Below, in pieces: positions 5,924-29,199 of a stretch of DNA of 64,000 nt. How positions within the stretch are numbered: position 1 is the first letter of the stretch; every line of letters starts with the position of its first letter. Source of the stretch: Candidatus Epulonipiscium sp. (GTDB lineage Bacteria; Bacillota; Clostridia; Lachnospirales; Defluviitaleaceae). A program made the position numbers and the translations under genes. Under the pieces are notes generated by a model, which worked only from the letters and a program-made list of their open reading frames with translations, was not told the DNA's origin and ran no database searches. Location: positions 1 to 64,000 of the forward strand of contig JAAYQR010000027.1 of assembly GCA_012519205.1 (NCBI GenBank). Reading direction: 5' to 3'.

Positions 5924-5978
5924 ACCAAATGAGGGGGATATCGTTGGGCAATTATAGGTGATATTGTAGGAATAGTTA

Positions 5979-6027
5979 TTGACATATGACATTAATGAGG
6001 TATAATAAGTATAAGTGACATATGTCA
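5979..6027 (+). promoter_or_regulatory. Promoter with twin TGACATATGTCA operators (locus A)
   Basis: TTGACA (5979-5984) and TATAAT (6001-6006) are 16 nt apart. A perfect palindrome TGACATATGTCA lies downstream at 6016-6027, and an 11-of-12 copy TGACATATGACA (5980-5991) overlaps the -35 box. The half-site layout TGA-N6-TCA is the form bound by Crp/Fnr-family proteins. The same architecture recurs at 25418-25468. Sites over the -35 box and just after the -10 box imply repression. The likely regulator is the Crp/Fnr protein at 28510-29199 or the DUF134 protein; this is inference. Confidence 0.7.
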
Positions 6028-6050
6028 TAAACTATAAGGAGGTGAATAGC

Positions 6051-6329
6051 ATGCCAAGAAGAGATGGAACCGGTCCAATGGGTGCCGGAGCAATGACTGG
6101 AAGAGGTTTAGGAATTTGCACAGGTGCCAATGCAGTAAAGTATGGAGTTGGTCTCGGAATGGGATTAGGCCTTGGACTTGCTTGCAGACGCGGTTTCGGT
6201 CGTGGCTTTGGTAGAGGGTTCTCAGTTAACCAGATCTCCTCGAAAACACAAAAAGAGTTGCTCAATGAACAGAAAACCATGTTGCAAGATCGACTCGAAT
6301 CTATTGATAAGCAATTAGAAAACCTATAA
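6051..6329 (+). CDS. DUF5320 family glycine/arginine-rich protein
   Basis: A 92-residue protein starting MPRRDGTGPMGAGAMTGRG, the hallmark of DUF5320. A Gly-rich middle (residues 24-60, GLGMGLGLGLACRRGFGRGF) is followed by a short coiled-coil-like C-terminal helix (LLNEQKTMLQDRLESIDKQL). The family's molecular role is unknown to me; members sit next to DUF134 and NifX/ORP-like genes, which points to metal-cluster metabolism. The ribosome site AAGGAGGTG ends 7 nt before the ATG. The gene follows the twin-operator promoter and is followed by a terminator and a truncated DUF134, so the rest of its usual operon is missing here and found at 25.5-28.4 kb. Confidence 0.8.
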   Translation: MPRRDGTGPMGAGAMTGRGLGICTGANAVKYGVGLGMGLGLGLACRRGFGRGFGRGFSVNQISSKTQKELLNEQKTMLQDRLESIDKQLENL

Positions 6330-6340
6330 TGGGAATCAGA

Positions 6341-6370
6341 AATAACCAGAGGACGCTCTGGTTATTTTTG
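6341..6370 (+). terminator. Terminator after the DUF5320 gene
   Basis: AATAACCAGAG (6341-6351) pairs with CTCTGGTTATT (6356-6366) around a GACG loop and is followed by TTTG. In locus B a weaker hairpin (AACAG at 25534, CTGTT at 25547) sits in the same place between DUF5320 and DUF134, so it may originally have been an intra-operon attenuator. Confidence 0.7.
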
Positions 6371-6392
6371 ATTAGGATGAAGGTGATGAATT

Positions 6393-6521
6393 GTGGCGAG
6401 ACTGATGAAGTGGAGGAATGTTTGCCGCTTGCCTAAAAGCAATGGAAAATCAAACCGTCATTTATTACACACTTTACCGGCGTCCTATTCCAACAGGCGA
6501 AGCGCCCTAAACAACTGTTGA
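6393..6521 (+). pseudogene. Truncated DUF134 gene
   Basis: From GTG 6393 the frame reads VARLMKWRNVCRLPKSNGK, matching the first 16 or so residues of the intact DUF134 protein at 25578 ([19 protein letters not shown]). It then loses similarity and ends at TGA 6519. A ribosome site (AAGGTGATG) precedes it. Only the first eighth of the gene remains. Bases 6522-6611 hold nothing I recognise. Confidence 0.7.
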
Positions 6522-6611
6522 CGTTCGCTTTTGCTACATCGATAAAAGTGTATTGGCCTAATTAATATTGTAATGGTATTTGTAACTCAAGGTACGACAC
6601 TTATATAAAGT

Positions 6612-8113: not shown

Positions 8114-8300
8114 ATGAAGGAGATTATCATAAAACTAATAAAAGGAAGCCAGTTATCCTTAAGAAAAATTGCTAATCTTCTAGAAATATCTTATAATACG
8201 GTACAAGCTTTGAACTAGAGAAATAGTAAATAAAGTAGGGGATTAAATTATAAATAAATCAAAGGCAAATCAAAAAGAACCGTCCCCAATGATTCAATGA
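8114..8300 (+). mobile_element. Second RAYT tail with REP-like motif
   Basis: ATG 8114 to TAG 8218 encodes LIKGSQLSLRKIANLLEIS, then YNTVQALN, the C-terminal part of a RAYT. The next codons (RNSK, stop) match the end of the copy at 2372-2446. AAGAACCGTCCCC at 8273-8285 is the associated REP-like sequence. It is followed by three near-tandem copies of AATGATTC up to 8310. The catalytic part is absent. Confidence 0.6.
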
Positions 8301-25417: not shown

Positions 25418-25468
25418 TTGACATATGTCGGTAAGGCGGTATAATATACTTATAAGTGACATATGTCA
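25418..25468 (+). promoter_or_regulatory. Promoter with twin TGACATATGTCA operators (locus B)
   Basis: TTGACA (25418-25423) and TATAAT (25440-25445) are 16 nt apart. TGACATATGTCG (25419-25430) overlaps the -35 box, and a perfect TGACATATGTCA sits at 25457-25468. Layout and sequence match locus A at 5979-6027, including the shared TATAAGTGACATATGTCA stretch after the -10 box. The promoter drives the DUF134/NifX/MinD operon. The rest of 25258-25417 has no gene. Confidence 0.75.
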
Positions 25469-25489
25469 ATAATTACAGGAGGTGAATTT

Positions 25490-25531
25490 ATACTAGGAGA
25501 AGATGGAACTGTCCCGATGAAATTGGTTTAA
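25490..25531 (+). pseudogene. Remnant of a DUF5320 gene (start codon lost)
   Basis: Behind AGGAGGTGAAT, at the spacing used in locus A, codons read ILGEDGTVPMKLV then stop, matching MPRRDGTGPMGAG of the intact DUF5320 protein at 6051. The ATG has become ATA and only 13 codons remain. A small hairpin (25534-25551) follows where locus A has its terminator. Confidence 0.65.
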
Positions 25532-25577
25532 TGAACAGGGGATGCTCTGTTTATTTCTATTGAATTGAGGTGGGGTT

Positions 25578-25958
25578 ATGGCAAGACCAATGAAATGGAG
25601 AAAGGTTTGTGGTTTACCTAAGAATGATAGATTTGGGCCTCTTGATTTATCCATAGATGATAGGGAATATATTAATATGACAGTAGATGAATATGAAACC
25701 ATAAGACTTATTGATTTAGAAGGGTTTACACAGGAGGAATGTGCAAAACAAATGAATGTAGCCCGCACTACTGTACAGGGTATTTATATGGAAGCAAGAA
25801 AAAAGCTGGCCGAATCCCTAGTAAATGGGAAAGTATTATTGATTGAAGGAGGAGAATACCGATTATGTGACGGTCTAGGAAGAAGTTGTGGAAGGGGGTG
25901 CCATAGGAATAGACATGGACGAAGCTTTGCAGATAAGAAAGATGAATCATATGAATAG
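25578..25958 (+). CDS. DUF134 helix-turn-helix protein
   Basis: A 126-residue protein. It starts [20 protein letters not shown] and contains the segment [20 protein letters not shown] followed by [19 protein letters not shown], a sigma-70 region-4-like helix-turn-helix. The Cys/His/Gly-rich tail ([20 protein letters not shown]) could bind a metal or iron-sulfur cluster. DUF134 proteins are predicted DNA-binding proteins found with NifX/ORP-like genes. As first intact gene of the operon behind the twin operators, it could be an autoregulator. That competes with the Crp/Fnr protein at 28510 for the same role. Confidence 0.85.
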
Positions 25959-26000
25959 TTTATTTTAAAAATGTCTAGTAAAATAGAATGGAGGATTCTC

Positions 26001-26369
26001 ATGAAAATAGCAATACCTGTGGATGAAAAAAACATGAATACGAAGGTTTGTATATCTTTTGGTCGTGCCCCATATTTCCTTTTTTATGATACCGAAACAA
26101 AGGAAGGTTTATTCCACGATAACAGTGCGGCAGCAAGTACAGGGGGGGCAGGAATCAAAGCAGCTCAAATGATAGTTGATAATAAAGCCGATATACTATT
26201 AACCCCAAGATGTGGACAAAATGCTGCGAACGTGCTTAAGGCTGCTGATATTAAAATATACAAGACAAATAATATTTCAGTGAAAGATAATATCGATGCT
26301 TTCACAAATGGGAAACTTTCTTTGCTTGAGGAAATCCATGCGGGATTCCATGGGCGTGGAGGAAATTAG
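26001..26369 (+). CDS. NifX/NifB-like (ORP-like) cluster-binding protein
   Basis: A 122-residue protein of the dinitrogenase iron-molybdenum cofactor family: MKIAIPVDEKNMNTKVCISF, FLFYDTETKEG, ASTGGAGIKAAQMIVDNKAD, PRCGQNAANVLKAA. In nitrogen fixers these RNase H-like folds carry FeMo-co precursors. In organisms without nitrogenase, relatives such as the Orange Protein of Desulfovibrio bind Mo-Cu clusters. No nif structural genes lie in this window. The start at 26001 follows GGAGG. It ends 1 nt before the first ATPase gene. Confidence 0.85.
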   Translation: MKIAIPVDEKNMNTKVCISFGRAPYFLFYDTETKEGLFHDNSAAASTGGAGIKAAQMIVDNKADILLTPRCGQNAANVLKAADIKIYKTNNISVKDNIDAFTNGKLSLLEEIHAGFHGRGGN

Positions 26370-26370
26370 T

Positions 26371-27231
26371 ATGAATATAGCTGTATTAAGTGGTAAGGGA
26401 GGAACAGGAAAAACATTAGTATCAGTTAATTTGGCCGCCACAGCAGGGGAATCTATTTATGTGGACTGTGATGTAGAAGAACCTAATGGGCATTTATTTT
26501 TTAGACCACAAGATATTAAGGAAGAAAAGATATACGTCAAAATTCCAACTGTTGAGTATGAGCTTTGTGATGGATGTAGGAAATGTGTTGAGTTCTGTAA
26601 GTTCAATGCCCTTGCTTATACGGGGAAAAACCTTATTGTTTTTGAAGAGATTTGTCACTCCTGTGGCGGATGTCTAATAGTTTGTCCTACGAAAGCATTA
26701 ACTGAAAAGGATAAGGTTATTGGAAAAATACAAAAGGGAGTTTCCAGGCAGGTAGTTGTACATACTGGAACAATGAACATAGGGGAAGCATCGGGAGTGC
26801 CAATCATTAATAAGCTCTTAGAAAAAAACAAAAAAGATCCAAATAAACTAACTATTATTGACTGTCCCCCTGGGAGTGCTTGTATTGTGATGGAAAGTAT
26901 TAAAGACGTAGACTATTGCATCTTAGTGGCTGAACCAACCCTATTTGGGGTTCATAACCTTAATATGGTATTTGAGTTAGTGCAATTATTTAATAAGCCC
27001 TTTGGGGTGGTACTTAATAAATGTTTGAAAGGTGAAAATCCGGCAGAAAAGTTTTGTTTAGAAAGAAACATTAAGATATTAGGCAGAATACCTTTTGATG
27101 ATGAGCTAGGAAGGATGAACTCTAGCGGTAATATTGTAGTTAGAGAAAATGAAAAATATAAATTTATTTTTTCTTCCTTACTAGAAATGATAAAAAGCGA
27201 GGTGCAAAATGAAGCAGCTTCTAATTCTTAG
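26371..27231 (+). CDS. MinD/Mrp-type ATPase with 4Fe-4S insert (first)
   Basis: A 286-residue P-loop ATPase. The deviant Walker A is SGKGGTGKTLVSVN (about residues 7-20); the family signature VDCDVEEPNGHLF follows. A bacterial ferredoxin insert carries two clusters: CDGCRKCVEFCKFNA (about 68-82) and CHSCGGCLIVCPTKA (about 96-110). A TIIDCPPGSAC switch region comes next. Such ATPases (Orp-type in Desulfovibrio, Mrp/Nbp35 relatives) are thought to assemble or transfer metal clusters. ATG 26371 is behind GGAGGA. The 3' end overlaps the next ATPase gene by 23 nt. Confidence 0.88.
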   Translation: MNIAVLSGKGGTGKTLVSVNLAATAGESIYVDCDVEEPNGHLFFRPQDIKEEKIYVKIPTVEYELCDGCRKCVEFCKFNALAYTGKNLIVFEEICHSCGGCLIVCPTKALTEKDKVIGKIQKGVSRQVVVHTGTMNIGEASGVPIINKLLEKNKKDPNKLTIIDCPPGSACIVMESIKDVDYCILVAEPTLFGVHNLNMVFELVQLFNKPFGVVLNKCLKGENPAEKFCLERNIKILGRIPFDDELGRMNSSGNIVVRENEKYKFIFSSLLEMIKSEVQNEAASNS

Positions 27232-28072
27232 TGGCAAAGGTGGCACTGGGAAAACTACAATAGCCAGTGCATTAATAAAGCTTTTTAATGCTAAGGCTTA
27301 CGGAGATTGTGATGTGGATGCACCGAATCTTCATCTTATAACAAGGCAAAATACTAAGCCTATAAAAAATCATTACTATGGTTTACCAAAAGCAAAAATA
27401 AACCCTAAATTATGCATCAAATGTGGTAACTGTATACAAAGTTGTAGATTTGATGCTATCTCATTGAAAAAAATATACACTGTGGATTTATATGCCTGTG
27501 AAGGATGTGGGGTTTGTGGACTTGTCTGTCCTAGAGGGGCCATATCCTTAGAGCCTACTATAGATGGGGAACTCATGCTATATAAAGATAAAGAGGAGGT
27601 TTTTTCGACAGCACAACTTAAAATGGGTAGCGGTACCTCCGGGATGCTTGTAACGGAAGTAAAAAAACAAATGAAATCGGCAGCAGGGGATGAAAATTTT
27701 GCAATTATTGATGGTTCCCCGGGTATAGGTTGTCCCGTAATAGCCTCCCTTAGTGGGGTGGATATGGTTTTAATCGTAGCCGAACCTTCTATATCAGGAA
27801 TTAGTGATATGGAACGGATAATAAAAACTGCCCAAGGATTTGGTACGAAGATAGGGGTATGTATAAATAAATATGATACTAATCTTAGAAATACTAGGAA
27901 TATTCAAGGGTTTTGCGAGAAAAAGGGAATACCTTTTGTAGGGAAAATACCTTTTGATTCGGAAGCGGTAAAAGTCATAAACAATGGTAGTACCATAGTA
28001 GATATAGAGTGCGCATCGGGAGTAGCGGTAAGGAAAATTCATGCTAAGATTATAGATATATTTAAAATATAA
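27209..28072 (+). CDS. MinD/Mrp-type ATPase with 4Fe-4S insert (second)
   Basis: A 287-residue paralogue of the preceding protein, and probably its partner in a heterodimer. Walker A is SGKGGTGKTTIASAL, with GDCDVDAPNLHL after it. The ferredoxin insert is CIKCGNCIQSCRFDA then CEGCGVCGLVCPRGA, and the switch region is IIDGSPGIGCPVIASL. The gene starts inside the previous one (23-nt overlap), implying coupled 1:1 synthesis. Paired ATPases of this type are the core of the Orange Protein operon in sulfate reducers. That comparison is by architecture only. Confidence 0.88.
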   Translation: MKQLLILSGKGGTGKTTIASALIKLFNAKAYGDCDVDAPNLHLITRQNTKPIKNHYYGLPKAKINPKLCIKCGNCIQSCRFDAISLKKIYTVDLYACEGCGVCGLVCPRGAISLEPTIDGELMLYKDKEEVFSTAQLKMGSGTSGMLVTEVKKQMKSAAGDENFAIIDGSPGIGCPVIASLSGVDMVLIVAEPSISGISDMERIIKTAQGFGTKIGVCINKYDTNLRNTRNIQGFCEKKGIPFVGKIPFDSEAVKVINNGSTIVDIECASGVAVRKIHAKIIDIFKI

Positions 28073-28088
28073 AATGGAGGTATAAGAA

Positions 28089-28448
28089 ATGATTAAAATT
28101 GCAGTAGCAAGTGAAGGGAATAGGATAACAGAACATTTTGGTCATTGTGAAAATTTTAATATTTTTGAGGGGGAAGATGGAAAGATTATAAGCGTTGAAT
28201 CTATCCCTAATCCAGGACATAAGCCAGGATTTCTTCCTAATTTCCTAAATGATAAAGGGGTTAATGTAATTATTTCAGGTGGCATGGGTGGAGGAGCCGT
28301 AGATATTTTTAATGAAAAAGGAATAGATGTTTATGTGGGGGTAAAAGGCGATGCCAAAGCAGCAGCAGAAGCATATCTTAAAGGTCACCTAAAAACAACA
28401 GGCTCTATTTGCCATGAACATGAACATCATGATATATGTGGAGAATAA
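28089..28448 (+). CDS. NifX-like cluster-binding protein with His-rich tail
   Basis: A 119-residue second member of the NifX/ORP fold: MIKIAVASEGNRITEHFGHC, NVIISGGMGGGAVDIFNEKG. The C-terminus is metal-ligand rich (CHEHEHHDICGE), which the first copy lacks. It lies 16 nt after the second ATPase and is probably the cluster acceptor or carrier. It is the last gene before the separately transcribed regulator. Confidence 0.87.
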   Translation: MIKIAVASEGNRITEHFGHCENFNIFEGEDGKIISVESIPNPGHKPGFLPNFLNDKGVNVIISGGMGGGAVDIFNEKGIDVYVGVKGDAKAAAEAYLKGHLKTTGSICHEHEHHDICGE

Positions 28449-28509: not shown

Positions 28510-29199
28510 ATGGATAAAAAGATTCATACTTGTACTCCACATAGGGCATGTATCTCATTGGTTCCGATTTTCAATCATTTAGAAGATTGTCAAATACATG
28601 AAATCATGAAATCTACAAAATCCACTTCATACAAGAAAGGGGAAATGATTTATCGTGCAGGGGATGTTTCAGACTCCCTACATATTGTAAGTGATGGAAA
28701 GGTAAAAATATACCGATTATCCGAATCAGGAAAAGAACAACTGGTGCGTATTTTAGGTCCAGGGGATTTCACAGGGGAACTGGCATTATTTAATGAGTCT
28801 ATTCATGAATCCTATGCAGAGGCCATGGAAGATAGTGATATTTGTATGATTACCCGGGAAGCCTTACAAAGGTTTTTGATGGAATTTCCTTCTATCTCTT
28901 TAATGATTTTATCTGAGTTTTCGAAGAGACTAGAAAAATCAGAAAAACAGGTAACCCGTTTTGCCACCGAAAAGGTTGAGACGAGAATAGCTCTTTTTTT
29001 ATCTGAACGTGTGGAAGATGAAGGTGGGAGAATGGAAATATCATTACCCATGGCTAGAAAGGATTTGGCATCTTATCTAGGAACAACACCTGAAACGTTA
29101 AGCAGGAAATTAACTGAATTTGAAAAGGAGGGGTATATTAAACAGATAGGGTATAAAAAAATCAAAATATTAGATTTAGATGGGTTAATGGATTTGTAG
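28510..29199 (+). CDS. Crp/Fnr-family transcriptional regulator
   Basis: A 229-residue regulator with a cyclic-nucleotide-binding-like jelly roll (GEMIYRAGDVSDSLHIVSDG; RILGPGDFTGELALF), a long dimer helix, and a C-terminal HTH (RKDLASYLGTTPETLSRKLT). Cysteines near the N-terminus (Cys8, Cys14, Cys27) suggest an Fnr-like redox or cluster sensor rather than cAMP binding. Its expected site, TGA-N6-TCA, matches the TGACATATGTCA operators at 5979-6027 and 25418-25468, so it is the first candidate for their regulator. It has its own weak promoter (TTGACT near 28456). Confidence 0.87.
   Translation: MDKKIHTCTPHRACISLVPIFNHLEDCQIHEIMKSTKSTSYKKGEMIYRAGDVSDSLHIVSDGKVKIYRLSESGKEQLVRILGPGDFTGELALFNESIHESYAEAMEDSDICMITREALQRFLMEFPSISLMILSEFSKRLEKSEKQVTRFATEKVETRIALFLSERVEDEGGRMEISLPMARKDLASYLGTTPETLSRKLTEFEKEGYIKQIGYKKIKILDLDGLMDL

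Follow-up and report, generated by a model that had tools for sequence, protein, structure and literature searches.

The stretch analysed, 64,000 nucleotides of a Candidatus Epulonipiscium sp. contig (JAAYQR010000027.1, positions 1 to 64,000 of the forward strand; hereafter the window), carries two related operon fronts 19 kb apart, here called loci A and B (Table 1). Direct reading of the sequence bears out the anatomy that the initial annotation gave for locus A, viz. a twin operator, an intact DUF5320 gene, a hairpin and a DUF134 gene that is cut short; the truncation is real, and it leaves 17 codons rather than the reported figure of about 16. The description of locus B likewise stands, with a twin operator, a DUF5320 stump of 13 codons whose ATG has become ATA, a hairpin, an intact DUF134 gene and the rest of the operon. 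The losses are complementary, as had been stated, with DUF134 cut at A and DUF5320 reduced to a stump at B. In nucleotide alignment the homology of the two loci extends past the promoter: for the leader, the hairpin plus downstream sequence and the DUF134 start, none of 1000 dinucleotide shuffles matched the observed score, while the DUF5320 stump alone aligns more weakly (3 of 1000 shuffles), and BLASTN aligns A with B at 75% identity over 112 nt (E about 3e-16).

Table 1. Features of loci A and B, with coordinates in the window
Feature	Position	Strand	Remarks
Locus A block	5971-6446	+	Probably acquired cluster I operon front; 83-88% nucleotide identity to 11 loci (L074-L084)
Promoter A	5979-6006	+	-35 TTGACA 5979-5984, -10 TATAAT 6001-6006, spacer 16 nt; read from sequence
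Operator site 1 of A	5980-5991	+	TGACATATGACA, overlaps -35
Operator site 2 of A	6016-6027	+	TGACATATGTCA, perfect palindrome
DUF5320 gene, intact	6051-6329	+	92 aa, PF17253
Hairpin core stem of A	6344-6363	+	Between DUF5320 and DUF134, T run after
DUF134 remnant	6393-6443	+	17 codons, GTG start; from alignment with B and cluster I
NADPH-dependent FMN reductase-like gene fragment	6451-6543	-	Fused to DUF134 remnant; name read from sequence, not from an HMM
Locus B	25418-28448	+	Twin-site promoter, DUF5320 stump, hairpin, DUF134, NifX/MinD/MinD/NifX
Promoter B	25418-25445	+	-35 TTGACA 25418-25423, -10 TATAAT 25440-25445
Operator site 1 of B	25419-25430	+	TGACATATGTCG, overlaps -35
Operator site 2 of B	25457-25468	+	TGACATATGTCA
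DUF5320 stump of B	25490-25531	+	ATA (was ATG), 12 further codons, TAA; aligned with A and relatives
Hairpin of B	25533-25552	+	Upstream of DUF134, retained
DUF134 gene, intact	25578-25958	+	126 aa, sigma-70 region-4-like HTH; PF02001, Sigma70_r4_2 26.8 bits
NifX-like protein (Nitro_FeMo-Co)	26001-26369	+	PF02579
MinD/ParA-type ATPase, ferredoxin insert 1	26371-27231	+	CbiA/ParA + Fer4
MinD/ParA-type ATPase, ferredoxin insert 2	27209-28072	+	CbiA + Fer4
NifX-like protein	28089-28448	+	PF02579, 79 bits; matches C-terminal half of MrpORP
Crp/Fnr-family regulator after operon B	28510-29199	+	PF00027, PF13545; Fnr-like

Both proteins belong to the families named, the A product scoring 100 bits against PF17253 and the B product 74.3 bits against PF02001 (gathering score 27 bits in each case). 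DUF5320 is intact at A only and is present in a single copy in the genome, and the intact DUF134 of the operon type is that of B, a second DUF134 (contig C14) being of a distant type. Operon B is probably an iron-sulfur or metal-cofactor operon.

The unsplit gene order was looked for in relatives and is present there as DUF5320-hairpin-DUF134-NifX-MinD-MinD-NifX. A search of 295 genomes of the order found the twin-site pattern in 23, and in Anaerotignum (G231, L052) the twin site heads DUF5320, DUF134, NifX, MinD, MinD and NifX genes that are all intact. A protein search with the DUF5320 of A returned 37 loci, about 20 of which have operator, DUF5320, DUF134 and NifX/MinD in that order; these comparisons establish the unsplit operon as a genuine and frequent arrangement in Clostridia. 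One close operon group among these loci, denoted cluster I (L074-L084, with L101), is spread over hosts from several orders, namely Clostridium acetireducens, Eubacterium aggregans, Oscillibacter ruminantium, Anaerotignum and a Tissierellaceae metagenome-assembled genome (MAG). The E. aggregans and Tissierellaceae copies are 96.7% identical over 2.8 kb and 77% beyond DUF134, and the front made up of operator, DUF5320 and DUF134 seems to have a recombination history apart from that of the NifX-MinD genes. The fall from 96.7% to 77%, seen between L077 and L078, comes just past DUF134, at L078:9671. The operon of L078 adjoins serine recombinases. Close to that of L082 are genes for a type IV (conjugative) coupling protein and for a DUF3991/Toprim protein, and it is adjoined by an ArsC-like gene and by ACR3, above its cut-off. 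In C. acetireducens (L075 6757-8940) a second, truncated operon front lies 2.2 kb upstream of the complete copy, and the insert between the two fronts probably bears a transposase. An apparent insertion in the DUF5320 gene of L101 proved to be a run of N.

Locus A resembles this group closely, with 83-88% nucleotide identity to the 11 loci over about 470 bp, from the promoter to DUF134 codon 17, and is nearer to E. aggregans (88.4%) than to Anaerotignum of its own order (84.5%). The homology ends abruptly on both sides, near 5971 and at 6443-6446. The DUF134 remnant lies within a 43-codon frame that continues into the antisense of another gene, and the adjoining 31-codon antisense fragment, which is FMN reductase-like, matches a gene of L101 at 81% amino acid identity over 31 residues (E 7e-12) and 89% nucleotide identity over 91 bp. 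Around A there are only repeats and gene fragments; inspection of the locus for an intact recombinase or att site found none, and its neighbour genes have no long match in the family genomes, so that an empty site was not demonstrable. Two repeats, at 2371-2506 and 8158-8295, flank the A region, are 85% and 82% alike in two parts, carry CCCCAATGATTC tails and read like the ends of a degraded transposase gene. The translated segment 2211-2321 shows a short match (43% identity over 37 aa, E 9e-7) to the ArsC-like protein next to the L082 operon, in the C-terminal part of the latter, and is possibly more debris of the same type of island. The GC content of the A block, 42.4% compared to 34.2% for the window and 43-46% for cluster I, lends weak support to a foreign origin, a glycine-rich gene raising GC by itself.

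The pair had been read as one operon duplicated here, whose functions were then divided between the copies. Part of what such a history would leave is indeed present, since both promoters are kept, the losses are complementary and an ancestral unit with both genes exists. Loci A and B also have in common an exact 18-mer, TATAAGTGACATATGTCA, at site 2 (6010-6027 and 25451-25468), which cluster I does not possess and which could have arisen by convergence towards the resident regulator or by local conversion, or could be ancestral; and a tree of the leader only (218 DNA columns, without DUF5320) does not reject A and B as sisters (AU p 0.45), although this tree is too short to decide and B forms a long branch in it. 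Duplicates, however, would be equally distant from outside operons, and the synonymous distances differ. Compared to cluster I, the DUF5320 gene of A is 62-78% identical at fourfold sites with dS of 0.27-0.44, the members of the cluster among themselves having dS of 0.21-0.49, whereas the DUF134, MinD and NifX genes of B show mostly 21-48% fourfold-site identity (57% in one 14-site comparison) and dS from about 1.6 to saturated, mostly saturated. Over 209 columns A is 70% identical to B, far below its 80-88% identity to cluster I. In the alignment columns that the two loci share, A goes with cluster I against B in 39-46 and with B against cluster I in 8-18 (site-pattern test, p 0.0075 to 7e-7). 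DUF5320 is moreover absent from all 7 other genomes of the family, and A resembles operons of foreign lineages more than it does the resident B, as is expected of a xenolog. The claim of duplication is thus not upheld, the dS values and site patterns grouping A with cluster I; a duplication in this lineage followed by reciprocal loss seems to us very unlikely.

By the sequence comparisons, cluster I has moved among hosts that are only distantly related, and A goes with that group. Locus A was cut at DUF134 codon 17 and joined to gene debris, while B, the older and more diverged operon, lost most of DUF5320 and kept its operator, hairpin and DUF134. The A fragment would thus have come by horizontal transfer, and the loss at B would have been a separate one. 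The complementarity of the two loci would then stem from transfer and independent loss rather than from duplication and subfunctionalisation. We consider it likely, taken as a whole, that A is a transferred and broken foreign operon front and B an older operon that lost DUF5320 on its own, with control of A in trans by DUF134 as the inferred link between them. When the 470-bp A block is used for a tree, A lies nearest cluster I and most forks are left open. In AU tests a cluster I that excludes A has p 0.060 and a clade uniting A with cluster I is opposed at p 0.0125, so that the tree does not fix the exact branching of A inside or around cluster I. The place of B among its relatives is not settled by a DUF134 tree.

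A scan of the 2.13-Mb genome for the twin-site promoter gives exactly two hits, 5979-6026 and 25418-25467, and a reversed control pattern gives none. DUF134 exceeds its cut-off in all 23 operator-bearing genomes of the order compared to 75 of the 272 others (Fisher p 1.4e-12, a value that is overstated since the genomes are not phylogenetically independent). Across 29 loci chosen by protein, the ATATG core of site 2 is invariant and the partner site starts about 35-39 bp upstream; several DUF134 genes picked by DUF134 alone have similar paired sites near -30 and -66, and the upstream regions of distant DUF134 types contain no such pairs. These patterns make DUF134 the probable operator-binding protein, which would control the operon that encodes it. 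Sitting on paired TGRCATATGYCA sites, over the -35 and just past the -10, it would repress or tune its own promoter, this placement of the sites suggesting repression. In the literature we found no description of a DUF134 regulator; for the operator, the one possible match was a paper about binding motifs in E. coli.

The candidate binder that competes with DUF134 is a Crp/Fnr-type protein, for instance the one encoded directly after operon B. Crp-type genes also lie near several of the relatives, and the half-sites TTGAC-N4-GTCAA resemble Crp/Fnr sites. Such sites usually have a variable spacer, however, whereas the ATATG centre does not vary in the protein-selected loci, and the sites are also found upstream of DUF134 genes of other families, so we regard a Crp/Fnr-type binder as unlikely. 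If, and only if, DUF134 is the operator binder, the DUF134 of B would be expected to control the DUF5320 of A in trans, since A has kept both sites; co-regulation of the two loci is accordingly a plausible prediction, and the acquired piece could make up for the gene lost from the resident operon.

The hairpin that follows DUF5320 has a folding z-score of -9.8 in locus A and of -3.1 in locus B. Across nine loci all 72 cells pair, five of them being changed on both sides, and none of 500 shuffles reached the observed covariation score. Either as a partial terminator or as a site of processing, the hairpin may determine how much DUF5320 is made relative to the other operon products.

Whether the arrangement serves the cell is a separate matter. 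The retention of each gene at one locus had been taken to imply that both proteins are still needed; this is not supported, since genomes of the family that carry the operator-DUF134 operon lack DUF5320 altogether. In one of these (G070) the DUF5320 Shine-Dalgarno sequence is joined straight to the 3' arm of the hairpin and the rest of the gene is gone, in another (G049) gene and hairpin are both gone, and genome-wide searches of the two found no DUF5320 elsewhere. Only 6 of the 22 other operator-bearing genomes of the order have a DUF5320 match. Given these absences DUF5320 is often dispensable, and its pairing with the loss at B is therefore no proof of need. Two DUF5320 matches per genome were seen in G144, G272 and G290, adjacent in G144 and G290, and some of them partial. 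Searches for DUF5320 gave one weak match in plasmids and none in phages, and no description of it was found in the literature.

Locus A might thus be transferred debris with no role, its DUF5320 a dying passenger whose pairing with the loss at B is coincidental. The cut DUF134 fused to an FMN-reductase fragment, the other gene fragments nearby and the dispensability of DUF5320 in relatives would all fit, as would the changes specific to A in this gene, five synonymous and six nonsynonymous, which are consistent with weak constraint and whose number is too small to reveal selection after the fragment arrived. Against this, the DUF5320 frame is open and its changes are conservative, the promoter, both operators, the Shine-Dalgarno sequence and the hairpin of A are all intact, and its site 2 has become a perfect palindrome relative to cluster I. 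We hold debris to be a real, if minority, possibility. More tentatively still, a mobile front cassette of twin operator, DUF5320 and part of DUF134 may have repaired a resident operon without DUF5320 in trans; the fragment would have joined the regulon at once, the resident DUF134 recognising the operator that fragment and operon share. We find this repair somewhat doubtful.

For transfer followed by independent loss, the wider lesson is that a pattern which looks like textbook subfunctionalisation can come about without a duplication, and that synonymous distances tell the two histories apart. DUF134, a widespread family of unknown function, gains a candidate operator in the paired sites at the promoter, and is placed in what is probably an operon for iron-sulfur or metal cofactors, similar to the orange-protein/MrpORP system.

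Like the pairs described by the duplication-degeneration-complementation model, A and B are homologous loci with complementary gene losses; unlike them, they are not each other's duplicates and A appears to have been acquired horizontally. The cluster I operons (Anaerotignum sp. MB30-C6, E. aggregans, O. ruminantium and C. acetireducens) share the twin-site promoter and the gene order through MinD, MinD and are unsplit, unlike A and B, although the DUF134 frame of C. acetireducens is broken. In many of them DUF134 is separated from NifX by a scaffold gene of the NifU_N (IscU-like) type (L082 9717-10124), and the operons of L078 and L082 include an MBL-fold gene and an Mrp ATPase, all of which are absent from B. 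The MrpORP/orp system of Desulfovibrio vulgaris (PMC6345978) has paired MinD-like ATPases with ferredoxin motifs (Orp3/Orp4) and a NifX/ORP-like domain, as B does, and an Mrp ATPase of the kind found in the relatives of B. In B and these relatives the Mrp and ORP halves are separate proteins, which fall below the MrpORP cut-off (NF041136, 450), the second NifX of B scoring 108 bits (positions 265-365) and the L078 Mrp 351 bits. The orp operons of D. vulgaris use sigma-54 (PMC6345978), whereas the promoter of B looks to be of the sigma-70 type with palindromes, and DUF134 stands in B in place of the regulator of the orp system.
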